Of a stretch of DNA of 43,071 bases, positions 2,364 to 20,695 are shown piece by piece. Numbering within the stretch: the stretch's first letter is position 1; the number at the start of each line of letters is the position of its first letter. The position numbers and the translations under genes were made by a program. The stretch is from Candidatus Omnitrophota bacterium. Its GTDB lineage: Bacteria; Omnitrophota; Gorgyraeia; JABMRN01; RBG-13-46-9. The stretch lies in the NCBI GenBank assembly GCA_016782445.1, contig JADHYM010000009.1, forward strand, positions 1-43,071, written 5' to 3'. The notes beneath the pieces are model-generated. The model was given only the letters and a program-made list of their open reading frames with translations. It ran no database searches and was not told where the DNA came from.

Positions 2364-3455
<1,092 letters not shown>

Positions 3456-3469
3456 AGTTGATATAAAAA

Positions 3470-3556
3470 TTCAGAAATCAGAAGTCAGAAGTCAGAGGGG
3501 GAAGTCGGGAAAATGAAAATATCCGGACATCTGATTTCTGACTTCTGTTTTCTGAA
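3470..3556 (+). repeat. TCAGAAGTCAGAA-type hairpin repeat (family D), copy 2
   Basis: TTCAGAAATCAGAAGTCAGA on the left is answered by TCTGATTTCTGACTTCTG on the right, with an unrelated loop of about 35 bases. The hairpin is bordered by an 8-base direct repeat GAAGTAAA at 3449-3456 and 3554-3561. The first of these contains the gapA stop codon, which fits a target-site duplication. The moxR ribosome site follows at once. Confidence 0.8.
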
Positions 3557-3576
3557 GTAAACGAAAGGAGCCAAAA

Positions 3577-4572
3577 ATGGCAAACGCTAGCATCACGGCA
3601 ATAAATGAGAAGATAAAAAAAGAGAGCACGTTCGTAACTGAGCTCATGCGCGAGATCGAAAAGGTAATTGTTGGGCAGAAGTATCTGATTGAGCGCCTGC
3701 TCGTAGGGCTTCTCGCAAACGGCCATATCCTTGTAGAAGGGGTGCCGGGCCTGGCGAAGACGCTCTCCATAACCACGCTTTCGCAGGCGATAAAAACAAA
3801 GTTCCAGCGTCTTCAGTTCACACCTGACCTTTTACCCGCGGATCTTGTCGGGACGCTTGTCTACAACCCGAAGGAAGGGGTATTCACGACAAAAAAAGGG
3901 CCGATATTTGCGAACATTATTCTCGCTGACGAAATAAACCGCGCCCCGGCCAAGGTCCAAAGCGCGTTATTAGAGGCGATGCAGGAGCGGCAGGTGACGA
4001 TAGGGGAGAACACCTTCAAACTTGATGAACCTTTTCTTGTCATGGCTACGCAGAACCCGATAGAGCATGAGGGGACCTACCCGCTTCCGGAAGCGCAGAT
4101 AGATCGTTTTATGCTCAAGATAAACATAACATATCCTTCCAAAGAAGAAGAGCATAAAATCCTTCAGCGCATGGCCTACACAGAAAAAAAACTGAGTGCG
4201 TCGTCTGTCGCGGGCCCGAAGGACATCATGCGGGCGCGGGCCGTTGTAGACGAGGTATACATGGACGAGAAGATAGAAAAATACATACTCGATATTGTAT
4301 TCGCGACACGCGAGCCGAAAAAATACAACCTCGATGACATAGCAAACCTTATACAATACGGCGCTTCGCCCAGAGCCAGTATTTATCTTACTGTGGCGGC
4401 CAAGGCCTACGCCTTTGTGCAGGGCCGCGGTTATGTGACCCCGCAGGATATAAAATCAATAGGCCCTGATGTATTGCGTCACCGCGTCATTGTTACGTAC
4501 GAGGCAGAGGCCGAGGAAAAGACTTCGGACGACATTATTAAGAGAATATTCGAAGAGATCGAAGTACCGTAA
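3577..4572 (+). CDS. MoxR-family AAA+ ATPase
   Basis: This 331-residue MoxR AAA+ protein is the usual chaperone-like partner of vWA and DUF58 proteins. Walker A is GVPGLAKT (55-62) and Walker B is LADEINRAP. The MoxR signature QNPIEHEGTYPLPEAQ and sensor arginines follow, and the C-terminal lid domain is complete. GGAG stands in front of the ATG. It heads a gene order (moxR, DUF58, vWA, vWA, TPR, BatD, BatE) that matches Bat aerotolerance operons. It probably remodels or activates the vWA membrane proteins encoded downstream; direct evidence for that partnership is from other bacteria. Confidence 0.93.
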   Translation: MANASITAINEKIKKESTFVTELMREIEKVIVGQKYLIERLLVGLLANGHILVEGVPGLAKTLSITTLSQAIKTKFQRLQFTPDLLPADLVGTLVYNPKEGVFTTKKGPIFANIILADEINRAPAKVQSALLEAMQERQVTIGENTFKLDEPFLVMATQNPIEHEGTYPLPEAQIDRFMLKINITYPSKEEEHKILQRMAYTEKKLSASSVAGPKDIMRARAVVDEVYMDEKIEKYILDIVFATREPKKYNLDDIANLIQYGASPRASIYLTVAAKAYAFVQGRGYVTPQDIKSIGPDVLRHRVIVTYEAEAEEKTSDDIIKRIFEEIEVP

Positions 4573-4607
4573 CAGTTTTCAGTAATCAGTTTTCAGTAAT
4601 CAGTTTT
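4573..4607 (+). repeat. Left inverted-repeat arm of four-helix-bundle cassette
   Basis: The unit CAGTTTTCAGTAAT is present twice in tandem, followed by CAGTTTTT. Its reverse complement recurs directly after the enclosed gene. The arm begins at the moxR stop codon and runs to the ATG of the small gene. Confidence 0.8.
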
Positions 4608-4611
4608 TATA

Positions 4612-4977
4612 ATGCAGGATGAAAAGAAGCTAAAAGTACAACAAAAAGCCCTGGACTATGTTGAGGAAGTTTATAGATTTTCGCTTATGTTGCCGGATAG
4701 CGAAAAATATAATCTGATTTCTCAGATTAGAAGAGCAGCTACATCAATACCTTTAAATATATCAGAAGGTGCCGCATCCAATAGCAAAAAAGAATTCAAA
4801 CAATTTTTAAGCATTGCCTATAGATCAGCTAAAGAAGTTTTAACTTGTTTTGAACTGATTGAGAGACTTCACTCGCATAAACATTTAGCTTCTAAAATAA
4901 ATGAATTAAAAATAAAAGGAGACGAAATTTGCAAAATGACCCATTCTCTAAGAATGAAACTGACAACTGAAAACTGA
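4612..4977 (+). CDS. Four-helix-bundle protein (23S rRNA intervening-sequence type)
   Basis: This 121-residue, largely helical protein has the signature of the S23/IVS four-helix-bundle family, with the blocks SLMLPDSEKYNLISQIRRA and SIPLNISEGAASNSKKEF. Members are commonly encoded in intervening sequences of 23S rRNA and resemble Avd of diversity-generating retroelements. Their biochemical function is not settled. Here the gene sits inside a protein operon between moxR and the DUF58 gene, enclosed by inverted repeats, and is more AT-rich than its neighbours. That points to insertion of a mobile cassette. The last codons (TEN then stop) are supplied by the right repeat arm. No ribosome site is visible. 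Confidence 0.85.
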   Translation: MQDEKKLKVQQKALDYVEEVYRFSLMLPDSEKYNLISQIRRAATSIPLNISEGAASNSKKEFKQFLSIAYRSAKEVLTCFELIERLHSHKHLASKINELKIKGDEICKMTHSLRMKLTTEN

Positions 4978-4993
4978 AAACTAATAACTGATA
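4959..4993 (+). repeat. Right inverted-repeat arm of four-helix-bundle cassette
   Basis: ACTGAAAACTGAAAACTAAT followed by AACTGAT is the reverse complement, with few changes, of the arm left of the small gene. It overlaps the end of that gene and stops one base before the next ATG. The same ACTGAAAACTGA unit appears twice, without a gene, after otsB. Confidence 0.8.
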
Positions 4994-4994
4994 A

Positions 4995-5873
4995 ATGATA
5001 CCAAAAGAAATCTTAAAAAAGATTCGGCGCATAGAGATAACCACCTCGCGCATGGTGACCGACGTCTTTGCCGGGCAGTACAAGAGTGTCTTCAAGGGCC
5101 GCGGCATGGAGTTCGACGAGGTGCGCGAGTATCTGCCGGGAGACGAGATACGCGCGATAGACTGGAACGTAACAGCGCGCATGGGGCACCCTTTCATAAA
5201 GCAATTCGTGGAAGAGAGAGAACTCACCATAATGCTTCTTATCGACAAATCCCCTTCCTCTTATTTTGGCACCACAAACGAGCTTAAAAGTCAGCTTGCT
5301 GCGGAGGTCGCGTCATTACTCGCGTTTTCCGCGATAAAGAATAACGACAAGGTGGGCCTCATTATTTTTACGGACAAGGTGGAGAAGTTTATTCCCCCGC
5401 GAAAGGGCTCGCGGCACGTTCTTCGCGTAATACGCGAGGCGCTTTATTATAAACCCGATGGCAAGGGCACTGACATAGAGGGGGCTGTTTCGTTCCTCAA
5501 CAGGGTGACCAAAAGAAAAACCGTTTCGTTTGTCATTTCTGATTTCTACGCGTCTAATTTTAGAAAATCACTTCTCGTGGCCAACAAGCGTCACGACCTG
5601 ATCGCCGTTACCATTACGGATCCGCGCGAGCTCGAGATGCCGAACGTCGATATAGTAGAACTCAAGGACCCCGAGACAAATGAGGAATTTCTCATCGATA
5701 CCTCGAGCCATGCCGTGCGAAATCAATACGCTCGTAACGCGAAGCGCCTCTTTAGCGAGCGCGAAAAGCTTTTCCGCTCCATAGGCGTGGACATGGTCGA
5801 TATACGCACTGACAGCCCTTATTCTAAGACGCTTTACAGGTTTTTCAGAATGCGGGAGCGAAGATTTAGATAA
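4995..5873 (+). CDS. DUF58 domain protein, vWA-like
   Basis: This 292-residue DUF58 protein has the family block GDEIRAIDWNVTARMG, followed by a vWA-like fold with a MIDAS-type DKSPS (DxSxS) near residue 81 and a later VISDFY strand. It has no signal peptide or membrane segment, so it should be a cytosolic peripheral partner of the vWA membrane proteins. In Bat operons this gene follows moxR directly. Here the four-helix-bundle cassette separates them and leaves the ATG without a good ribosome site. The stop codon lies one base before the next ATG. Function is inferred from conserved gene order only. Confidence 0.9.
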   Translation: MIPKEILKKIRRIEITTSRMVTDVFAGQYKSVFKGRGMEFDEVREYLPGDEIRAIDWNVTARMGHPFIKQFVEERELTIMLLIDKSPSSYFGTTNELKSQLAAEVASLLAFSAIKNNDKVGLIIFTDKVEKFIPPRKGSRHVLRVIREALYYKPDGKGTDIEGAVSFLNRVTKRKTVSFVISDFYASNFRKSLLVANKRHDLIAVTITDPRELEMPNVDIVELKDPETNEEFLIDTSSHAVRNQYARNAKRLFSEREKLFRSIGVDMVDIRTDSPYSKTLYRFFRMRERRFR

Positions 5874-5874
5874 T

Positions 5875-6816
5875 ATGAAGAAGACAGGCCTTTTTCTTCT
5901 ATGTTTTTTAGTTCTATTTCCGGGTATTTCCCGTTCGGAAAGTCGCACAGAAATCACGGCCGAGGCGCGTGTTGACCAAGAATCGTTCAGGATAGGTGAC
6001 AGTATACGCTATTCTGTTAAGGTCGTTGCGAATCCGGATCTCGAAATCGAGTATCCTGCAATAGGTAAAGAGATAGGTGATTTTGAGATTAAGGACGCCG
6101 GCCGCAGCGATAAGGAAGCCAAGGGCAAGCGGTATATCGAGACGTGGTATATCTTAAGGACATTCAAGACAGGCGCTCGAACCATACCGCTTGTTACGAT
6201 TAAATACAAGACCCCGGGCGAGACGGGTTTAAGGTCAATCGATACGAATCCGGTTACTGTAAACGTCGAAAGCGTTTATGAGAAAAGCCCTGACAAATCC
6301 GATATACGCGACATAAAAGGCATTTTTTATGTTACAAGGCGCCTTGTTATCCCTCTTGGTTTAATAATTGCCCTTATCGTGATCGCGCTTCTTGTGGGGG
6401 GCATTTATCTTAAAAAAAGGCTCACTTCGCTCATGATCCCGGAGGTAATAAAACTCCCGCACGAGATAGCTTTTAAAAGGCTGGAAGAGCTGAAAAATAA
6501 GGGCCTTGTTGAAAAAGGGCTCGTGAAGGAATTCTACTTTGAGCTCTCGGATATACTAAGGCGCTACATAGAGGACAGGTTTAATCTTCGCGCGCCCGAG
6601 ATGACAACAGAAGAATTTCTTATCTTTCTTAAGAGCTCGAAGTCTTTATCAGTGGATCACAAGTATCTTCTTCGAGAGTTTTTGTCGCATTGTGACCTCG
6701 TGAAGTTCGCGAAATACGGACCGAGTCCTAAGGAAATAGAAAAGAGCCTCCTTTCAGCAGAGAGTTTCGTGGACCAGACAAAGGAAGAAAAAGAAGAAAA
6801 GAAAAATGGAATTTAA
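5875..6816 (+). CDS. Exported membrane-anchored protein, short BatD-like / DUF4381-like
   Basis: This 313-residue protein starts with a signal peptide ending near SRSES. A beta-rich extracytoplasmic domain of about 130 residues resembles the first repeat of BatD (VDQESFRIGDSIRYSVKV). A transmembrane helix follows near 157-178, then a cytosolic helical domain (IAFKRLEELKNKGLVEKG...DILRRYIEDRF) of the kind found at the C-terminus of BatD and DUF4381 proteins. It overlaps the next vWA gene by 11 nt. It probably acts with the vWA proteins as a receptor or scaffold spanning the membrane. The exact family name is uncertain. Confidence 0.75.
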   Translation: MKKTGLFLLCFLVLFPGISRSESRTEITAEARVDQESFRIGDSIRYSVKVVANPDLEIEYPAIGKEIGDFEIKDAGRSDKEAKGKRYIETWYILRTFKTGARTIPLVTIKYKTPGETGLRSIDTNPVTVNVESVYEKSPDKSDIRDIKGIFYVTRRLVIPLGLIIALIVIALLVGGIYLKKRLTSLMIPEVIKLPHEIAFKRLEELKNKGLVEKGLVKEFYFELSDILRRYIEDRFNLRAPEMTTEEFLIFLKSSKSLSVDHKYLLREFLSHCDLVKFAKYGPSPKEIEKSLLSAESFVDQTKEEKEEKKNGI

Positions 6817-7798
6817 AGACCCGTTAGCGCTTTTATTTATTCCGCTTTTCATAGCCGTTCTTTTTTTAACGAGGCGGAAGGCCCACGCCTTCATACGCTT
6901 TCCAACGCGGGAGCTTCTGGCGGGCATAAAAGCCACCTTTAAGCTGCGCTTCATGAAGTATCTGGTTTTTTTAAGGGTAGGGGCGCTTGTGCTCCTTGTT
7001 TTTGCCTTTGCGAGGCCGCGGCTTCCCCTTAAGGAAACAGTTGTCTATACCCAGGGTATAGACATAGTCCTCGCGCTTGACGTGTCTACAAGTATGTTGG
7101 CTGAGGATTTTAAAATAGGGGGAAAGCGTCTTAACAGATTGGACGTGGTAAAGAAAGTAGTAAAGAGTTTTATAGAGAAGCGCCCCAACGACAAGATCGG
7201 GATGGTCGTCTTTGCAGGGCGCTCTTACACTATTTCACCTCTGACGCTGGACCACGGATGGCTTTTAAATAATCTCGAGAGGGTAAAAATAGGTATGCTC
7301 GAGGATGGGACCGCTATCGGATCAGGCATTGCTTCATCTCTGAACCGCCTGAAAGGCACCAAGGCAAAGGATAAGATAATAATTATTTTGACAGACGGCA
7401 TGAATAACGCCGGGAAGATAAGCCCGCTTATAGCTGCCGACGCCTCGCACGCCCTGGACATTAAGATCTATGCGATAGGCGCCGGCACAAAAGGCTTTGC
7501 GCCGTATCCTGTACAGGATGCTTTTGGCAGGACCATGTACCGGCCGGTAAAGATCGATATGGATGAGACCACCTTGAAAAAGATAGCGCAGGTTACAGGG
7601 GGCGTTTATTATAGGGCGACGGATACGGAGAGCCTAACGGATATTTATGATGAGATCGATAAGCTCGAGACGTACCCGATCGAGGAAAAAGGATACCTGG
7701 AGTACAAGGAGCTTTTCGGATATTTTCTTTATCCCGGGATTTTTCTTTTGCTTCTCGGAGCAATACTAAGCAACACTATTTTTAGGAGAGTACCGTAA
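6806..7798 (+). CDS. batA: BatA-like vWA membrane protein
   Basis: This 330-residue protein has two N-terminal membrane segments (about 7-23 and 54-72), a vWA domain and a final membrane helix (about 303-325). The MIDAS residues are intact: DVSTS, the threonine region in EDGTAIGSG, and LTDGMNNAG. The family is known from Bacteroides and Leptospira Bat aerotolerance loci, where the molecular task is still not defined. The gene overlaps its upstream neighbour. A 137-base gap with a palindromic element separates it from its paralogue batB, whereas most other junctions in the operon overlap. Confidence 0.88.
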   Translation: MEFKDPLALLFIPLFIAVLFLTRRKAHAFIRFPTRELLAGIKATFKLRFMKYLVFLRVGALVLLVFAFARPRLPLKETVVYTQGIDIVLALDVSTSMLAEDFKIGGKRLNRLDVVKKVVKSFIEKRPNDKIGMVVFAGRSYTISPLTLDHGWLLNNLERVKIGMLEDGTAIGSGIASSLNRLKGTKAKDKIIIILTDGMNNAGKISPLIAADASHALDIKIYAIGAGTKGFAPYPVQDAFGRTMYRPVKIDMDETTLKKIAQVTGGVYYRATDTESLTDIYDEIDKLETYPIEEKGYLEYKELFGYFLYPGIFLLLLGAILSNTIFRRVP

Positions 7799-7819
7799 TG
7801 TTAATGAGATCCGGTAGTT

Positions 7820-7917
7820 ACGTCGGTCGTCGGACGGTTGCGGTTGCGTTCATACTTACGCTGCCGACCGACGCAGCCGTTTCTCGCGACTCAACCACAA
7901 CCGACCAACGGAACCGG
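7820..7917 (+). repeat. GGTTGCG-type palindromic element (family C), batA-batB
   Basis: GGACGGTTGCGGTTGCGTT on the left is answered by degenerate CAACCACAACCGACC on the right, with an inner GACCGACGCAGCCG. The sequence before it, TTAATGAGATCCGGTAG (7801-7817), resembles the batB start region ATAATGCGATTCGGTGA (7933-7949), 12 of 17 positions by eye. The element may therefore be flanked by a degenerate duplication. Confidence 0.7.
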
Positions 7918-7935
7918 GTTATATAGAGGTCAATA

Positions 7936-8946
7936 ATGCGATTCGGTGACCCAAGATTAGCGTATACACTGTGGTCGGTTGCGGCGCTGGGGGCGTTCTA
8001 TTTCTGGGCGTTTAAGCGCAAAGAAAAAACCCTCCGCCGCTTCGCAGAGGATAAGCTTTTAAACGAAATATCAGCTTCGCGGGACACGGGAAAAGAAAAG
8101 CTGAAAGTTTATCTTTTGACGTGCGCCTTTTTACTTTTGATTCTGGCAGCAATGAGGCCCCAGTGGGGTTTTCACTGGGAAGAGGTAAAGCGGCAGGGCA
8201 TAGACATACTGATAGCGCTTGACACCTCCAACAGCATGCTGGCCGAGGACGTCAAGCCCTCGAGGATCGAGCGCTCAAAGCTCGCCATAAAGGACCTTGT
8301 CGGAAAACTAAAAGGGGATCGCGTAGGCCTCATAGCCTTTGCGGGAAGCGCTTTTTTGCAATGCCCCTTGACGACTGATTATAATGGCTTTATACTTTCA
8401 TTGGATAGCATGAACGTTGACACTATACCGCGGGGCGGCACGTCCATATCAAGCGCCATAAAAGAGGCGATAAAGGTTTTAAAAGACGAGCCGGAGAGCT
8501 TCCGCGTGCTCATTCTCATTACTGACGGCGAGGACCACGAGGGCAATCCCTTGGAATGGGCGAGAATAGCGGAAAAAAACAAGATACGGATATTCTGTAT
8601 AGGAATAGGCACGCCTGAAGGCGAGCTCATATACGTGCAGGACGAACACAATCGCGGCTCATTTCTGAAAGACAGAGAGGGCAATGCGATAAAGTCCAAG
8701 CTCAACGAAAGGGTGCTTGAAAAAATCGCCCTTGCAACAAAAGGGACCTACGTCCATGCCACGGGAGCGCAATTCGGGCTTGACCTTATTTATAAGGACC
8801 GGTTGTCCGTGATGGAGAAAAGGGCGCTCGAGTCGAAACTCGTCAAGCAGTATGAAGAGCGCTTTCAGATACCCTTAGGGTGCGCAATTTTACTTCTTGT
8901 AGCGGCGATGTCCGTAGGCGAGAGAAAAAAGAAAATAGATGCTTAA
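7936..8946 (+). CDS. batB: BatB-like vWA membrane protein
   Basis: This 336-residue paralogue of the preceding vWA protein has N-terminal membrane segments (about 10-26 and 55-73), MIDAS residues DTSNS and LITDGEDHEG, and a short C-terminal hydrophobic segment (about 312-328). GAGG stands 5 bases before the ATG. It overlaps the TPR gene by 8 nt. BatA and BatB proteins are thought to pair in the membrane with the TPR and BatD partners; that is known only in outline for the family. The paralogues have clearly diverged, so this is an old duplication. Confidence 0.88.
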   Translation: MRFGDPRLAYTLWSVAALGAFYFWAFKRKEKTLRRFAEDKLLNEISASRDTGKEKLKVYLLTCAFLLLILAAMRPQWGFHWEEVKRQGIDILIALDTSNSMLAEDVKPSRIERSKLAIKDLVGKLKGDRVGLIAFAGSAFLQCPLTTDYNGFILSLDSMNVDTIPRGGTSISSAIKEAIKVLKDEPESFRVLILITDGEDHEGNPLEWARIAEKNKIRIFCIGIGTPEGELIYVQDEHNRGSFLKDREGNAIKSKLNERVLEKIALATKGTYVHATGAQFGLDLIYKDRLSVMEKRALESKLVKQYEERFQIPLGCAILLLVAAMSVGERKKKIDA

Positions 8947-9871
8947 ATACGCTTTTATTCTACTCGCGTTTTTTTTAATGCCGCGTGCGGCACCTGCCGC
9001 GGATTCTGACAGGCTTGTCTCGGAAGGAAATAAGCTTTACGAGGCAGAGGACTATACGGCTGCGCTCGAGAGGTACAAGAAGGCAGAGGAGCTTTTGCCG
9101 GATTCACCTTTAATAAAGTTCGACGTCGGCGCAGCGCTCTACAAGACCAAAAGTTACAAAGAGGCAGTGTCAGCTTTTACACAGTCACTCGCCTCGGAAG
9201 ACTCGCGTCTTGAAGAGGGCGCAAACTACAACCTGGGGAACACAAAATACAGAATCGGCGCCGCGAGGCAAGAAAAAGATCCCGAGGCCGCGATGAGCGT
9301 CATGAAAGAGTCTTTAAAATATTACAAAAGAGCCATAGGGTTAAACCCTGATGACGAGGACCCTAAGTTTAACTACGAGTTTGTTGAGAAAAAACTAGAA
9401 GAGCTGAAAAAGAAACAAGAAGAACAAAAGAAAGACGAGAACAAGGAGCAAGACAAAGAGGACAAAGAGGATCAGCAAGATAAAGAGGATAAGAAAGACC
9501 AGCAAGACAAGCAGGACGAGAAAGACAAACAAGACGAGAAAGACAAGCAAGACGAGAAAGACAAGCAAGACGAGAAAGACAAACAAGACGAAAAAGACAA
9601 GCAAGACGAGAAAGACAAACAAGACGAAAAAGACAAGCAAGACGAGCAGGATAAGCAAGACGAGCAGGATAAACAAGATGAGCAAGACAAGCAAGAGCCG
9701 CAAGGCCAAGAGATGCCCCGCGAGAGCGCGTCTCAAGATTATCACGGCGGGGATATGTCTAAAGAAGAGGCTAAAATGCTTTTAGAGGGCCATGAGCATG
9801 AAGAGGAAGAAACAGGCGATAAAATGAAAAAAATCGGAGCTTCAAGCGATGATGTGCTTAAGAACTGGTAA
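8939..9871 (+). CDS. batC: BatC-like TPR protein with long charged repeat tail
   Basis: This 310-residue protein has a signal peptide ending near APAAD. Three or so TPR motifs (about 22-145, with NKLYEAEDYTAALERYKKAEELLPDSP) are followed by a charged low-complexity stretch. That stretch is built from the hexapeptide KDKQDE repeated about eight times and then a QDKQDE variant (about 155-250). The end is acidic. TPR proteins of Bat operons are presumed periplasmic scaffolds for the vWA pair. The tail should be extended and disordered. Overlaps with the genes on both sides support translational coupling. Confidence 0.85.
   Translation: MLKYAFILLAFFLMPRAAPAADSDRLVSEGNKLYEAEDYTAALERYKKAEELLPDSPLIKFDVGAALYKTKSYKEAVSAFTQSLASEDSRLEEGANYNLGNTKYRIGAARQEKDPEAAMSVMKESLKYYKRAIGLNPDDEDPKFNYEFVEKKLEELKKKQEEQKKDENKEQDKEDKEDQQDKEDKKDQQDKQDEKDKQDEKDKQDEKDKQDEKDKQDEKDKQDEKDKQDEKDKQDEQDKQDEQDKQDEQDKQEPQGQEMPRESASQDYHGGDMSKEEAKMLLEGHEHEEEETGDKMKKIGASSDDVLKNW
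9480..9690 (+). repeat. 18-base tandem repeat in batC
   Basis: An in-frame tandem of the unit AAAGACAAGCAAGACGAG, with silent A/G changes (caa/cag, aag/aaa), encodes KDKQDE. The last third switches to an AGCAGGATAAGCAAGACG variant encoding QDKQDE. Copy number is likely to vary between strains by slippage. Confidence 0.9.
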
Positions 9872-11693
9872 GACGCGAATAGTCATTTTGTTGTTTTTAT
9901 TTTGCGCCCTTATTATACCCGCAATCATTTCACATGCTGCCAGGGAAATAGGGTTTCGCGTTACAGCGGATAAGACCGTGGTCTCGCTCGGAACCAGATT
10001 CCAGATGAACATCATTTTTGACGAGATGCGCGACATACCGCCTCCTGATATACCAAGCACGGAAGAGTTTAAGATACGCTACCTCGGGCCGTCGAGCCGC
10101 GTTTCGATCGTGAACGGCCAGATGGCGAGTTCCATAACGCATATATACACGTTAATCCCGCTCAAAGAAGGTACTTTTAAGCTCGGTCCTTATTCGTTTA
10201 ATTACAGGGGTGATACGTACTCGTCAAACGCCTTTACCGTTCAAGTAATAACAGGAGCCGTTCCCCAACAGAGCGCGCAAAGAACCGATCGTTATAGAAA
10301 GAGCGGGGAATATGGCGACAGGGCATTTCTCGTAATGAAGGCGGGAAAAACAAGGGCTTATATAAACGAGCTCATACCGTTATCTGTAAAACTTTACGCG
10401 GACAGGCTTTCGATAAGGGATATACAGTACCCTGAGTTTGAGCAGCAGAGTTTTTCCGTTCAGGCGTTCGGCGATCCCACGCAGTACCGCGAATACTCAG
10501 GCGGTGTGCCGTACGGCGTAATGGAGTTTAAAACCTATATATTCGGCACGCGTGCGGGTAAATTTTTCATCGGGCCCGCGATACTTAAGGGCAACGTCAT
10601 GACACAAAAAAGAAGCCGATCGCCTTTTTCAAGGGGCGCGTATGACGACGAGGATTTATTCGAAAGCTTCTTCGGCGCCTACGATATTTTTCCGCTCGAG
10701 CTTGAATCAAACGAGGTCCCGATGGTTGTGCTGGCGCTTCCGAAAAAGGGCCGGCCCGAAAGCTTTAATGGCGCGGTGGGCAAATTCCGCTTTAATTTAA
10801 GCGCGAGTCCCCGCGAGGTAAAAGTAGGGGATCCGATTACCCTAAAGATGTTTGTTACGGGAGAGGGGAATTTTAACACAGTTCTTGCGCCGAAGCTTGA
10901 TCTAGGGGAACATTTCAAAACTTACAAGGCCGAGGTTTCAAAGCAGGAAAAAACAAAGGTCTTTGAACAGGTGCTGCTTCCCACCAGCCACTCCATTACG
11001 GAAATTCCGCCGGTTAAATTTTCATTTTTTGACCCTGTAGCGAAGAAATACAAAACCGTGACGACAAAGCCCATAAAGGTAAAGGTGGAAAAGTCTGACA
11101 GTCCCGGGCATTTAAGGATAGTGGAGGATGGAAAAGCTGCGTACATGGGATCGGTTCCACAGGAGGAGGTCCTGGGCCGTGATATAGTATATATAAAGGA
11201 GAGCCCCGGGGCCTTTAGGAAAAAGGGCCCTTATCTCTATAAAAACAAACTGTTTCTCGGAGCCAATATCTTTGTGTTTTTCATCTTTTTAGGGCTTCTT
11301 TTTATCGAAAAAAGGCAGGAGCGCTTGCGTAAGGATGTCAGGTATGCGAGGCGTCTGGTAGCGCCCAAGAACGCCAGGATGAACATAAAACGAGTCAGGA
11401 TCCATATGGAGAGGGGCCAGCTCGAAAAATTTTATGACGTCATATTCAAGACGCTGCAAGGCTATTTCGGCGATAAATTCCACCTTCCTTCAAGCGGCAT
11501 AACAGGTACCATAGTAGATGAGGTTCTCGCGCCAAAAGGCGTAAAAGAAAATATTCTTAAAAAGACACGGGCGCTTTTTGAGGATTGCGACATGGCGCGT
11601 TATGCCCCCTCAAGTCTTGACGCGAAAAAAATGGGAGAGTCGTTTCGCTCGGCCCTCGAAATAATAGATTATTTCGAAAGGAAAAGATTATGA
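9849..11693 (+). CDS. batD: BatD-like protein
   Basis: This 614-residue protein has a signal peptide (hydrophobic core around 11-25), several BatD-type beta domains (first with VTADKTVVSLGTRFQMNI, later SPREVKVGDPITLKMFVTG) and a transmembrane helix near 475-491. A cytosolic helical C-terminal domain ends in FERKRL. The start lies inside the end of batC (two adjacent ATGs; either could serve). The stop overlaps the next gene as ATGA. BatD proteins are large envelope components of aerotolerance operons. The short BatD-like gene upstream shares the same fold order, so the operon carries two such proteins. Confidence 0.88.
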   Translation: MMCLRTGKTRIVILLFLFCALIIPAIISHAAREIGFRVTADKTVVSLGTRFQMNIIFDEMRDIPPPDIPSTEEFKIRYLGPSSRVSIVNGQMASSITHIYTLIPLKEGTFKLGPYSFNYRGDTYSSNAFTVQVITGAVPQQSAQRTDRYRKSGEYGDRAFLVMKAGKTRAYINELIPLSVKLYADRLSIRDIQYPEFEQQSFSVQAFGDPTQYREYSGGVPYGVMEFKTYIFGTRAGKFFIGPAILKGNVMTQKRSRSPFSRGAYDDEDLFESFFGAYDIFPLELESNEVPMVVLALPKKGRPESFNGAVGKFRFNLSASPREVKVGDPITLKMFVTGEGNFNTVLAPKLDLGEHFKTYKAEVSKQEKTKVFEQVLLPTSHSITEIPPVKFSFFDPVAKKYKTVTTKPIKVKVEKSDSPGHLRIVEDGKAAYMGSVPQEEVLGRDIVYIKESPGAFRKKGPYLYKNKLFLGANIFVFFIFLGLLFIEKRQERLRKDVRYARRLVAPKNARMNIKRVRIHMERGQLEKFYDVIFKTLQGYFGDKFHLPSSGITGTIVDEVLAPKGVKENILKKTRALFEDCDMARYAPSSLDAKKMGESFRSALEIIDYFERKRL

Positions 11694-12463
11694 AAACAAC
11701 TCGGGGTGCGCTTTTATTCCTCATCTTCTTTTGCATGGCAGGATTTTTTTCCGGCTGTACAAGCCAAAAAGTTCCGGGAGAACTCGAAGGGCTCTTCGAA
11801 AGCGCGGGTGAGTATTATAAAAAGGGCGACTACCCCCTGGCAATAGAAGATTATGAAAAAATACTTAACTCGGGTTACGAAACCGGCAATTTATATTACA
11901 ATGTCGGAAACAGCTACTTTAAGCAAAACATGATCGGCAAAGCGATAGTCAATTACAAAAGGGCGCTTCGTCTCCAGCCCAGAGACGGTGACGTGAGGTC
12001 CAATTACAAATTTGCATTTTCCACGGTAAAAAGAAACGTGTTCCCTAAGCAAAAGATATTTGTTTTAAAGCTTTTCGACATAGTCAACAAAAACCTGACG
12101 ACTAACGAGGTGACGATTGTCCTCTCCCTCGTAATCCTTATTTTCATGGTGAACGCGCTTCTTTATGTCTCTATTATACCCACGAGAAGGTTTTTCGTGC
12201 TTTCAAGCGTTGTGCTTATCCTTATCTTCCTGGCGAACGCGTATTTCCTCTATGCTAAGGCTTGCCTTATAGGAAAAGAGGCCGTAGTAATACAGGAAGC
12301 GCCGGATGCGAGATTCGAGCCCTTCCCGAGAGCGACAACGCACTTTACTCTTTATGAAGGGGAAGAAATCCTCGTCATCGAGCGCATGGATTCATGGTGC
12401 AAGATTAAACGCGTTGATGGGAAGATTGGGTGGGTCAAGGCTGAGGCGGTTGAGGTAATATGA
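11690..12463 (+). CDS. batE: BatE-like TPR lipoprotein with SH3-like end
   Basis: This 257-residue protein has a lipobox FSGC at the end of its signal peptide, so it is a predicted lipoprotein with Cys near residue 23. Two TPR units follow (YYKKGDYPLAIEDYEKIL and the next one). Two membrane helices lie near 143-165 and 170-190. A C-terminal SH3-like domain (EGEEILVIERMDSWCKIK...GWVKAEAVEVI) closes the protein. This is the layout of BatE proteins. It is coupled to batD by ATGA. Its own stop is again within ATGA, but the ATG opens a short reading frame through a repeat and not glgA. Confidence 0.85.
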   Translation: MKTTRGALLFLIFFCMAGFFSGCTSQKVPGELEGLFESAGEYYKKGDYPLAIEDYEKILNSGYETGNLYYNVGNSYFKQNMIGKAIVNYKRALRLQPRDGDVRSNYKFAFSTVKRNVFPKQKIFVLKLFDIVNKNLTTNEVTIVLSLVILIFMVNALLYVSIIPTRRFFVLSSVVLILIFLANAYFLYAKACLIGKEAVVIQEAPDARFEPFPRATTHFTLYEGEEILVIERMDSWCKIKRVDGKIGWVKAEAVEVI

Positions 12464-12475
12464 ATATATTTGAAT

Positions 12476-12657
12476 GGGTTGCGGTCGCGTCGGTCGGTCG
12501 CGTCCCTTGCGGTCTGCATTTTGCATTGAGGAGCTCGGGACTCCCTTCGGTCGTCGCGCGAAACGTGGGTCGTCAGCCGGTCGCGTGTATTTTATTCACG
12601 CAACCCATTGACGCAACCGTTTCTCGCGACACAACCGCAACCAATCGACGCAACCGG
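12476..12657 (+). repeat. GGTTGCG-type palindromic element (family C), batE-glgA
   Basis: This is the largest copy of the family. GGTTGCGGTCGCGTCGG on the left is answered by GACACAACCGCAACC and CGACGCAACCGG on the right, with an inner CGTGTATTTTATTCACG hairpin. AATATGAATAT occurs before the element (12457-12467) and AATATATGAATAT after it (12661-12673), consistent with a target duplication around the glgA start codon. A 69-codon frame (12460-12669) crosses it. Confidence 0.75.
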
Positions 12658-12665
12658 ATTAATAT

Positions 12666-14066
12666 ATGAATATTCTATTCGCATCCCCAGAAGTGGTCCC
12701 TTTCGCCAAAACAGGCGGTTTAGCTGACGTTGCCGGCAGCCTCCCGAAAGAGCTTGCCAGGGAAGGGCAAGCCGTAAAAGTAATACTCCCGTTCTATAAA
12801 TCCGTCAAAAACCTTGATCTTTCGCTTAAACCGAAAAAGATCGGCTCGTTCGCATTTCTTACATATGAAGATTCAGGCATTGAGTACGTATTCGTCGTGA
12901 ATGACAAATATTACGACAGAGATGCGCTCTATGGCGATAAAACAGGCGACTACCCGGATAATTACCTGCGTTTTAGCTACTACGCGAAGAGCATTGTCGA
13001 ATTTGCCCTGCATTCAGGCTTTAAGCCGGACATAATTCACTTAAACGACTGGCAAACCGGCCTCGTGCCGATTTATCTAAAAATGGAGAACAGCCCTATA
13101 AAGACGCTTTTCACCATCCATAACATTGCTTATCAGGGCCTCTTTAAAAATAGTGTTTTAAAAGACATCAGTGTCCCGCGGGATTTTTATCATATAAACG
13201 GTATAGAGTATTACAACAAGATCTCCTTCTTAAAAGCAGGCATTATTTATTCAACGGCAATTAGCACAGTAAGCAAAAAATATTCAGAAGAGATCCTAAC
13301 CACGGAATTCGGATGCGGCATGGACGGAATATTAAAAACGCGCGCACACGACCTTTACGGAATACTAAACGGCGTTGATTACAAAGACTGGGACCCTAGA
13401 AATGATAAATACATCGCGGAAAAATACGGGCCGGAAACAATAGGGGGAAAAGTCTTTTGCAAAAAAGACCTTATAAACGCCTCAGGCCTGCTCGAAGACA
13501 CTATTGAGCGGCCCCTAATCGGTGTCATCTCACGCCTTGCCGAACAAAAGGGCATAGACTTACTCGCCGAAGCTGCCAGGGATATAGTGAATGCCGGCGC
13601 AAGCATCATCATTCTCGGAACAGGCGATGAAAAATACAACAAGATCTGCGCGGATCTAGCTGATGAATTCCCGGGCCGCGTTGCAAGCCTCATAAAATTC
13701 GACAACGCACTCGCACACAAAATCGAAGCAGGAAGCGACTTTTTTGCAATGCCCTCACGATACGAGCCATGCGGCTTAAACCAACTCTACAGCCTCCGCT
13801 ACGGCACACTCCCAATCGTGCGTGCAACAGGGGGCCTCGACGACACCATAACTGACCTCTACGCTGACCCGGAAAACGGAAACGGCATCAAATTCCAAGA
13901 CGCCACAAAAGACGCGCTCATCGAAGCGGTAAAGCGCGGCATTGCGCTCTACCAAAAACGTGACACTTGGCACTCCACACTGCGGAGGATTATGGGGCTC
14001 GACTATTCTTGGCAACGATCCGCCACATTCTACCGGGAGCTTTACAGTAAATTAATCAATAAATAA
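12666..14066 (+). CDS. glgA: Glycogen/starch synthase (ADP-glucose type)
   Basis: This 466-residue GT5 enzyme extends alpha-1,4-glucan chains from ADP-glucose. The N-terminal substrate motif KTGGLADVAG (K15) is present, as are HLNDWQTGL, TIHNIAYQG and the C-terminal donor-site block RYEPCGLNQLYSLRYG, whose Glu corresponds to E377 of the E. coli enzyme. Length is normal. The ATG lies in ATGA, overlapping the end of a short frame that runs through the preceding repeat; no classical ribosome site is seen. Palindromic elements flank the gene at both ends. A degenerate second copy of its 3' end lies about 70-120 bases further on. It links sugar phosphates to storage polysaccharide. Confidence 0.96.
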   Translation: MNILFASPEVVPFAKTGGLADVAGSLPKELAREGQAVKVILPFYKSVKNLDLSLKPKKIGSFAFLTYEDSGIEYVFVVNDKYYDRDALYGDKTGDYPDNYLRFSYYAKSIVEFALHSGFKPDIIHLNDWQTGLVPIYLKMENSPIKTLFTIHNIAYQGLFKNSVLKDISVPRDFYHINGIEYYNKISFLKAGIIYSTAISTVSKKYSEEILTTEFGCGMDGILKTRAHDLYGILNGVDYKDWDPRNDKYIAEKYGPETIGGKVFCKKDLINASGLLEDTIERPLIGVISRLAEQKGIDLLAEAARDIVNAGASIIILGTGDEKYNKICADLADEFPGRVASLIKFDNALAHKIEAGSDFFAMPSRYEPCGLNQLYSLRYGTLPIVRATGGLDDTITDLYADPENGNGIKFQDATKDALIEAVKRGIALYQKRDTWHSTLRRIMGLDYSWQRSATFYRELYSKLINK

Positions 14067-14070
14067 CAAC

Positions 14071-14123
14071 ACGCAATCGCAACCGACCGACGTTTCGCGC
14101 GACACAACCGCCACCGTCCGACG
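14071..14123 (+). repeat. GGTTGCG-type element (family C), right half only
   Basis: ACCGACCGACGTTTCGCGCG followed by ACACAACCGCCACCG matches the right arm of the complete copies. The left arm is missing. It starts 4 bases after the glgA stop. Confidence 0.65.
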
Positions 14124-14137
14124 TTCCCCATACCACC

Positions 14138-14185
14138 TCCGCCTCTCATTACCGCGAACTCTACTCGAAACTAATTAAACAGTAG
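14138..14185 (+). pseudogene. Relic of a glgA 3' end
   Basis: Sixteen consecutive positions translate as SASHYRELYSKLIKQ and stop, against SATFYRELYSKLINK and stop at the real glgA end. The two copies differ mostly at synonymous positions (CGG/CGC, GAG/GAA, CTT/CTC, AGT/TCG, TTA/CTA, ATC/ATT). The relic therefore diverged while still coding, or came from a related genome, rather than being a fresh duplication. A half palindromic element separates the two copies. The relic's stop codon lies at the edge of a family B repeat. Confidence 0.75.
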
Positions 14186-14318
14186 CTTCCGAAGGGCGCC
14201 TACCTCGCTGCTCACCCCATCTATTGTGATAAAAATCTCAAAATGTCGCTGAAGAGGGTGTAACCTTAAGTGTATGGCGCAAAAGTTCGCCTCTCGGTAG
14301 ACGCCCTCCGGAAGCTAC
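14182..14318 (+). repeat. Palindromic repeat family B, copy 1
   Basis: The terminal inverted repeat GTAGCTTCCG with GGGCGCCTACC is answered by GGTAGACGCCC with TCCGGAAGCTAC. The interior includes CTCACCCCATCTATTGT and CTTAAGTGTATGGCGCAAAA, which recur almost unchanged near 32.1 kb. No reading frame is convincing, so it is MITE-like. Confidence 0.82.
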
Positions 14319-14490
14319 TGTAGCAATCGCGTTTCTTATCTTAGGTTCGCGGTAATAGGTGGCTACGGTGAGAAAGTGGGTATCGGTGGCAGTTGCGTCG
14401 ATAGTCCGAAACGCTTTCGAGTTGGCATCCTTCCTTCACCTGATCTCAATCATCAAAACACAATATAAAATCTTTTTTTCAACACAAGCA
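14319..14490. other. Gene-free stretch with a possible half repeat and a palindrome
   Basis: I see no gene here. GTGGCAGTTGCGTCG near 14390 resembles a degenerate left arm of the GGTTGCG elements. A CGAAACGCTTTCG palindrome lies at 14407-14419. The rest is AT-rich without a recognisable signal. Confidence 0.5.
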
Positions 14491-14675
14491 TTAAAGCAGG
14501 GGATTGGGGTAGTGCTGGAGCGAAGCTTGAAAAAGTGCTCATACAATTGGCGCCATTTAACTGCGCAATATTTTGTGCAGTAGGTCATGAGCGCTTTTTC
14601 ACGCCAGCGACCGAGGAGGCGCCTATCCTCCGAGGGAGCGACGAGCGGAAGCACTGCCCCAAGCCCCTGCTTTAA
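14491..14675 (-). repeat. Palindromic repeat family A, copy 2 (reverse orientation)
   Basis: The inner part is the reverse complement of the copy at the window start. The outer arms pair as TTAAAGCAGGGG...GGGG...AGTGCT with AGCACTGCCCC...CCCCTGCTTTAA. These arms differ in sequence from those of the copy near 27.6 kb, although both sets pair. A rubredoxin promoter follows 15 bases later. Confidence 0.85.
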
Positions 14676-14689
14676 AGCCAAACTAAACC

Positions 14690-15560: not shown

Positions 15561-16739
15561 ATGAAAAAGACCGTAAAAGACATGGATATAAGAGGTAAGC
15601 GCGTCCTTGAGCGCGTTGATTTTAATGTTCCGCTTGACGAGAAAGGACGCATTACAGACGATACGCGTATAAGAGCCGCTCTTCCTACTATACAATATAT
15701 TCTCAAAGCACCCGCGAAGTTGATCCTGATGAGCCACCTGGGCCGCCCAAAGGGTGAGGCTATTCCTGCGATGAGCCTCGCGCCATGCGCAAAGCGCCTT
15801 TCTGAGCTTCTTCGCAGGCCCGTAAAAATGATGAAAGATTGCGTAAGCTCGGATGTGGAAAAAGAAGTCGCATCCATGAAGGACGGAGACGTAATTCTTC
15901 TTGAAAACCTAAGATTCCATAAAGAGGAAACCAAGAACAACCCTGAATTCGCGAAAAAACTCGCTTCTCTCGGGGAGGTATTCATAAACGACGCATTTGG
16001 CACCTGCCACAGGGCGCACGCCTCGACAGAAGGCGTTACGAAGTTTCTGCCGAGCGCCATGGGACTTTTAGTGGAAAAGGAAGTGGAATATTTCGATAAG
16101 ATCCTTACTTCTCCTGAAAAACCGTTTGTCCTGATACTCGGCGGCGCGAAGGTTTCCGATAAGATAGCTGTTATAGAGAACATGCTCCCTAAAATAGATT
16201 CGCTTCTTATAGGCGGGGCAATGGCGTATACGTTCCTTAAGTCACGTTTGAAAGGCGTCGGAAGCTCCAAGCTCGAAGAGGACAATGTGGAAGTAGCAGC
16301 TGAGCTTTTCTCCAAAGCGCGCGAAAGCAACGTGAGCATATTTCTTCCGGAGGATCACGTCATAGCTAAAACCATAACCCCGGATGCGAGAACAAAAGTC
16401 GCGAAAGAGCATATTCCTGATGGCTGGATAGGCCTCGACATAGGCCCGAGAACAATTAAAAAATTTAAAGAAGCCTTGAAAGACGCGAAGACTATTCTCT
16501 GGAACGGCCCACTGGGGTATTTTGAGTTTAAGCCGTTCAGAAGGGGAACCACTGAGATTGCCAAATTCATAGCGCGTCTTGACGCGGTTAAAGTAATAGG
16601 CGGGGGAGATACAGCAGCCGCGATAAATGAGCTGAAACTCGGGCCGAAGATGAGCCATATTTCAACCGGCGGCGGAGCATCGCTCGAATATCTCGAAGGA
16701 AAAGGGCTGCCGGGAATTACGGCCCTCGAGGATAAATAA
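15561..16739 (+). CDS. pgk: Phosphoglycerate kinase
   Basis: This 392-residue cytosolic enzyme makes ATP from 1,3-bisphosphoglycerate. The substrate loops RVDFNVPL and SHLGRPKG, the hinge region GGAKVSDKI and the nucleotide site WNGPLGYFE with GGGDTAAAI are all intact, and the length is standard. A strong ribosome site and consensus promoter precede it. Its last base is the first base of tpiA. It is the first gene of a run joining glycolysis, secretion (secG) and peptide import. Confidence 0.98.
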   Translation: MKKTVKDMDIRGKRVLERVDFNVPLDEKGRITDDTRIRAALPTIQYILKAPAKLILMSHLGRPKGEAIPAMSLAPCAKRLSELLRRPVKMMKDCVSSDVEKEVASMKDGDVILLENLRFHKEETKNNPEFAKKLASLGEVFINDAFGTCHRAHASTEGVTKFLPSAMGLLVEKEVEYFDKILTSPEKPFVLILGGAKVSDKIAVIENMLPKIDSLLIGGAMAYTFLKSRLKGVGSSKLEEDNVEVAAELFSKARESNVSIFLPEDHVIAKTITPDARTKVAKEHIPDGWIGLDIGPRTIKKFKEALKDAKTILWNGPLGYFEFKPFRRGTTEIAKFIARLDAVKVIGGGDTAAAINELKLGPKMSHISTGGGASLEYLEGKGLPGITALEDK

Positions 16740-19590: not shown

Positions 19591-19711
19591 GGTTGCGGTT
19601 GCGTTGATCGGTTGCGTCGCGAGAATCGGTTGCGTCAGACGGTTGCGTTTATTATTCACGCACCCGACCGACGACGGACGTTTCGCGCGACGCAACCGCA
19701 ACCGACCGACG
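19591..19711 (+). repeat. GGTTGCG-type palindromic element (family C), before dppB
   Basis: CGGTTGCGTCGCGAGA on the left is answered by TTTCGCGCGACGCAACCG on the right. An inner GGTTGCGTTTATTATTCACG hairpin lies between them, and the outer GGTTGCGGTTGCG pairs with CGCAACCGCAACC. The frame of the downstream permease gene is open through the element from 19604. Confidence 0.82.
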
Positions 19712-19720
19712 AAAAACAAT

Positions 19721-20695
19721 ATGTTAAAATACATAATAAAACGCTTACTAAATATGATCCCGATATTGTTCGGTATCACTCTTATTTCCTTCGCCGTGAT
19801 ACACATGGCTCCGGGCAAGCCCACTGATCTCGTAACCCAGCTCAATCCCAAGGTGAGCATGGAAGCGCGCGAGAAGCTGAATAAAATACATGGCCTCGAC
19901 AAACCGCTTTACGTTCAGTATCTTGACTGGATAAAAAAAATAGGACGGCTTGATTTCGGGAAAAGTTTTGCCGACTCAAGGCCTGTTATCGATAAGATTG
20001 CCGAAAGACTCCCCATAACTCTCCTTATAAATGTCCTCTCGATTTTTATTATTTTTATTGTTTCAATTCCCGTAGGCATAAAAAGCGCTCTCCGAAAAGG
20101 AGCGCCTTTTGACAAGATAAGTACGGTCGCGGTATTTATAGGATTTGCCATCCCGAGTTTCTGGCTGGCGCTTCTTTTAATATCGTTTTTCGGGGTACAC
20201 TTAGGTATTTTGCCCGTATCCGGGATTGTGTCGCTCGATTTTGAAAAACTAAATCTTTTACAAAAAATATTCGACCTCTCGCGGCACCTCATACTGCCTG
20301 TTTTTGTGCTTTCAATAGGCGGCATAGCGGGTTTTTCCCGCTACATGCGGCAGAGCATGTTGAGCGTGGAGCACCAGGATTATATAAGGACCGCAAGGGC
20401 CAAGGGCCTGCCGGAAAAAGAGGTAATATACCGGCACGCGCTTAAAAACGCGCTCCTTCCTATAATAACAATTCTCGGGCTTTCTATTCCGGCGCTACTT
20501 TCAGGAAGCGTTATCGTCGAGAAGGTATTCAGCATACCGGGCATGGGGCTTTTAATGTTTGAGTCGGTTTTTATGCGTGACTATAACGTGATAATGGGGA
20601 TCCTGATTGTAAGCGCATTTCTCACGCTTTTAGGAAACCTCCTTGCTGACATCGCGTACGTATACGCAGATCCGAGGATACGCTATGAAAAATAA
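19721..20695 (+). CDS. ABC peptide transporter permease (DppB type)
   Basis: This 324-residue inner-membrane permease starts [20 protein letters not shown]. It carries the DppB signatures [22 protein letters not shown] and the EAA loop ([20 protein letters not shown]), where the ATPase docks, and has about six membrane helices. I chose the ATG after the palindromic element; the frame is open further upstream through the repeat, but those residues do not fit the family. The end overlaps the next permease by 11 bases. Confidence 0.92.

Follow-up and report, generated by a model that had tools for sequence, protein, structure and literature searches.

The window, a 43,071-nt stretch of DNA, is one contig (C33) of a 1.0-Mb draft genome in 37 contigs, which is 86% complete with 2.4% contamination. 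It carries one intact glgA gene and, between that gene and pgk, a short relic of a second glgA 3′ end set among two kinds of palindromic repeat (A and B). The features discussed below are as follows.

2457–3455, + strand: gapdh, usually the gene upstream of glgA in this family
3577–12463, + strand: MoxR / DUF58 / BatA / VWA / BatD / TPR-SH3 block filling the gapdh–glgA interval; not found here in relatives
12470–12665, + strand: repeat B, long-form palindromic copy between the TPR/SH3 gene and glgA (54 matching stretches in its own genome)
12666–14066, + strand: resident glgA, intact, 466 aa (Pfam Glyco_transf_5, 4e-75)
14019–14066, + strand: 3′ end of the resident glgA, SATFYRELYSKLINK and stop
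14075–14125, + strand: half copy of repeat B (right arm, from the palindrome centre to the outer end), directly behind the glgA stop
14138–14185, + strand: the relic, a diverged glgA 3′ end, SASHYRELYSKLIKQ and stop; homology may begin at 14135
14184–14316, + strand: repeat A, a 133-bp imperfect palindrome with AGCTTCCG ends (12 copies in the genome)
14317–14375, − strand: decayed inverted copy of the relic zone (VATYYRE...; 12-nt exact core ATTACCGCGAAC), found by alignment
14376–14420, − strand: degenerate inverted half B that closes the outer hairpin stem, found by flank alignment
15561–16739, + strand: pgk, the conserved downstream neighbour of glgA

The order glgA, pgk, tpiA is kept in all six same-family genomes compared, so the relic, which sits between glgA and pgk, lies at the ancestral locus. 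Five of these six relatives have gapdh upstream of glgA, at a distance of 0 bp (G003), 13 bp (G001), 0.6 kb (G002), 1.0 kb (G007) or 2.3 kb (G005). Here, the gapdh–glgA gap is 9.2 kb and the relic is on the other side of glgA, towards pgk, in a glgA–pgk interval of 1.5 kb that holds the relic, the repeats and a rubredoxin gene. The VWA genes of the block that fills the gap occur in G002 and G004 on contigs other than the one that carries glgA.

The gene at 12666–14066 is the genome's one full glgA; a search of the genome for a second found none, and every same-family genome that has glgA likewise has one full copy. By glgA, the genome's closest named relatives are Candidatus Omnitrophota MAGs. 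The resident gene is compositionally odd: its third-position GC skew of −0.43 is the most extreme among the 110 ORFs examined (mean −0.02, sd 0.13), its own pgk has −0.01, and the glgA genes of relatives range from −0.04 to −0.18. By codon-usage likelihood it is mildly atypical (z −2.3, rank third of 32). Protein trees of glgA, pgk, tpiA and gapdh always place this genome on its own branch inside the family, i.e., there is no discordance, so any donor of the gene would be a close relative. B repeats enclose the resident glgA on both sides. In the long B copy before the gene, a peptide resembling that of glgA (PCGLH..ALR..GLPSVVA) was rejected as chance: its score of 38 was reached by 42 of 1000 shuffles, and it had no Pfam match.

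Divergence of the two gene ends

Aligned without gaps, the relic (TCCGCC...CAGTAG, 14138–14185) and the end of the resident gene (TCCGCC...AAATAA, 14019–14066) share 31 of 48 nucleotides, and 11 of 15 residues plus the stop are identical at the protein level. Six of those 11 identical residues are written with a different codon, and the 17 nucleotide differences fall 5, 2 and 10 on codon positions 1, 2 and 3. The initial annotation had described a second, diverged glgA 3′ end beyond the real stop and had counted six silently different codons, and both descriptions hold. It had also argued against a target-site duplication, with which an identity of 65% and a strong silent bias agree.

We simulated decay by placing 17 random substitutions on either copy and counting how often at least 12 of 16 codons kept their meaning. 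This happened once in 200,000 trials when starting from the resident end and once in 50,000 when starting from the relic. Divergence this rich in silent changes requires two coding lineages, which bears out the earlier proposal that both ends evolved as coding sequence and were joined later. The relic is a truncated homologue of the neighbouring intact gene that diverged as coding sequence. When the spacer after glgA was compared with GlgA in all six frames, the relic was the best match, with a score of 54 that was reached by one in 1000 shuffles under a trimer model, a figure that ignores the match ending exactly at both stops.

In all likelihood, no protein is made from the relic. Its offset of 1472 nt puts it in a different frame from glgA, and we rejected its use as an alternative C-terminus via read-through or frameshift since, besides the frame, a stop and the half B intervene. 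Its own stop, TAG, is completed by the first bases of repeat A. A search for the relic sequence elsewhere in the genome did not find it.

The affinity of the relic was assessed against the glgA ends of the family, three of which end SALHYKELYEKL and three of which have T before SA. An extra codon, ACC (T), at 14135 may belong to the relic, as three relatives read T-S-A there and the resident reads R-S-A. The relic reads T-SASHY and the resident R-SATFY. The T before SA and the H in SASHY look ancestral; the relic has kept these residues where the resident lost them, so the relic is clearly not a copy of the resident. Of six relatives, four match the relic better than they match the resident (24 vs 21, 23 vs 19, 24 vs 20 and 20 vs 17 of 39 nt). 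The initial annotation had named as its key result a relic that would match a related genome's glgA end better than the resident one, and this was not what we found: the resident matches at 26 of 39 nt and the best relative at 24 of 39, a comparison that has little power with 15 codons and no same-genus genome among those compared.

Palindromic repeats and the nested hairpin

The initial annotation had placed one palindromic element between the two gene ends. A palindrome does lie there, as a half copy of the dispersed repeat B, and a second, different palindrome (repeat A) follows the relic. Repeat A is short, non-coding and multicopy with terminal inverted repeats, features shared with repeats of the REP/MITE type. 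Its 12 copies in this genome (G000) are 82–100% identical, and its 26-nt arms are 92% complementary; its interior is also conserved among copies. Outside its own genome, it was found once in same-family G003 (G003:C26:118255-118387), and 292 genomes of the class gave one further weak match of 32 nt. Its core was looked for in viral contigs and not found there. In six of the 12 copies, the relic's own A included, the repeat begins 0–16 nt behind a stop codon, and since this is also its position at the relic, the relic probably served as a genuine gene end in the past. One helicase-C ORF (L016:1-600), whose motifs are reminiscent of Mfd/TRCF, stops 12 nt before an A copy and is possibly shortened.

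Repeat B is a GGTTGCG-rich palindrome with approximately 40 copies in the genome, and it too occurs in G003. Its copies are often flush with gene starts or stops. One ORF called mechanically (19604–20695) begins within a B copy (19604–19714), so its start is probably placed too early. Half copies of B that start from the palindrome centre recur, which, speculatively, hints at breakage there. A further large palindrome lies at 14488–14678, with 29-nt arms that are 90% complementary, and segments of it are also present next to further copies of A and B.

From the half B onwards, positions 14082–14425 form one continuous nested hairpin of approximately 340 nt, made of half B, relic, A, inverted relic and inverted half B, with a folding energy of −146.5 kcal/mol (z −9.2). 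The inverted relic zone is identical to the relic zone in 37 of 55 aligned columns; none of 3000 shuffles reached its global score and 17 of 5000 reached its local score. Aligning the flanks alone gave a score of 60, compared with a null maximum of 40 in 1000. Arm identity is 67% in the relic zone and 90% in the A stem. At 67%, the inverted copy did not arise recently, and the junction between half B and relic must be at least as old. An Rfam search for known RNA in the hairpin gave no match up to E = 1.

The initial annotation had suggested that the ends were brought together when the palindromic element moved or recombined, and had proposed looking for the same relic pattern beside every copy. 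Movement of the element as the agent was not supported. Protein-level comparison at 54 A and B placements turned up no other convincing relic of a gene end, so transport of gene ends is not a general property of these repeats. The second-best candidate (score 54, C4:15267) was rejected as an Arg-rich, gapped match, and the third (score 46, C15:20593) as a long, weak and gapped one. A broader role can be imagined in which the A and B palindromes are breakage and joining points at gene ends, with cleavage at their centres driving whole-gene replacement by diverged alleles and the glgA relic as one case, but we regard this as doubtful.

Origin of the relic

The reading we lean towards, with some reserve, is that a diverged glgA replaced the native gene and that the relic is the 3′ stump of the earlier allele. 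An earlier glgA allele would have stood upstream of pgk with repeat A directly behind it. Incoming DNA with another, diverged glgA and its downstream half B would have displaced this native gene, and the MoxR/Bat block between gapdh and glgA possibly arrived with it. The right-hand junction would have been illegitimate and would have fallen within the last codons of the native gene, leaving its final 15–16 codons, the stop and A on the pgk side. A later template switch at the A palindrome would have produced the inverted copies of relic and half B, and with them a single long hairpin. The gene order and the atypical resident glgA point to such a swap of the whole gene. On the other side, the gapdh–glgA spacing varies in relatives (0 bp to 2.3 kb) and the 9-kb block may be a separate event. 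As far as the sequences can tell, a replacement would also sit less easily with the relic being closest to the resident and not to a relative, with codon usage that is only mildly odd, and with the result at 3456–3576, directly after gapdh, where we looked for a relic of a glgA head and found none.

The main rival holds that two glgA genes once stood side by side, as old tandem duplicates or as a single-crossover merodiploid, and that a later deletion, running from the half B up to the last 15 codons, removed most of the downstream one. It predicts the final order and the silent divergence just as replacement does; in its favour, palindromes are readily deleted, and half copies of B starting at the palindrome centre occur several times. 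However, no same-family genome has a second full glgA, nor does this one, and by itself a deletion leaves the resident's odd third-position skew unexplained, so we consider this course of events possible and on the whole unlikely. An assembly chimera that joined the differing glgA alleles of two co-existing strains has to be considered for a draft of this completeness, contig number and contamination, particularly as B repeats could mislead an assembler. The junction between half B and relic nevertheless lies outside shared sequence, and both elements have a decayed inverted copy beyond A, i.e., the junction appears old, which makes a chimera improbable.

Less probable still is a transfer in which A or B left its place next to the glgA of another strain, took the last codons along and inserted here. 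The position of A flush against the relic and its dispersed, mobile-looking character fit such a transfer, but about 50 other A/B placements gave no convincing gene-end relic, the relic sequence is found nowhere else in the genome, and a chance landing beside the very same gene is unlikely. Finally, a match of only 48 nt invites the question of chance resemblance. We give this hardly any credence: the score alone is a 1-in-1000 event before the neighbouring gene, the shared strand and the exact end at both stops are counted, and the codon-level simulation also speaks against it.

If the relic is the stump of a replaced allele, gene replacement has left a legible trace here in an uncultured phylum. 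Alleles arriving from close relatives encode nearly the same protein, which makes such exchange difficult to notice there. Silent changes are enough to identify a remnant of only 15 codons, and the same signature could be scanned for behind gene ends in other genomes.

Comparison with known systems

REP/MITE-type small palindromic repeats (e.g., PMC2817692, PMC3733652) resemble A and B, which are short, dispersed, mostly intergenic imperfect palindromes. They differ in that the glgA locus gave no Rfam match and that A is nearly confined to its own genome.

For the proposed replacement, the closest parallel is the meningococcal capsule locus, where, by the authors' explanation, illegitimate recombination left a 3′ galE2 remnant beside the incoming galE1 (PMC5349592). 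There too, an incoming block brings its own copy of the gene at the insertion site, and a diverged 3′ remnant of the native gene stays (PMC5349592). The galE2 remnant differs in being 615 nt long and in lying in an inverted duplicated region, whereas the glgA relic, known from one genome, measures 48 nt, is in direct order and forms part of a nested palindrome.

Homology-facilitated illegitimate recombination is described in PMC6382021 (citing de Vries and Wackernagel 2002) as a known route in natural transformation. This route is expected to leave 3–10 bp of microhomology at the illegitimate junction. One homologous anchor combined with one illegitimate junction would give the geometry seen at glgA.
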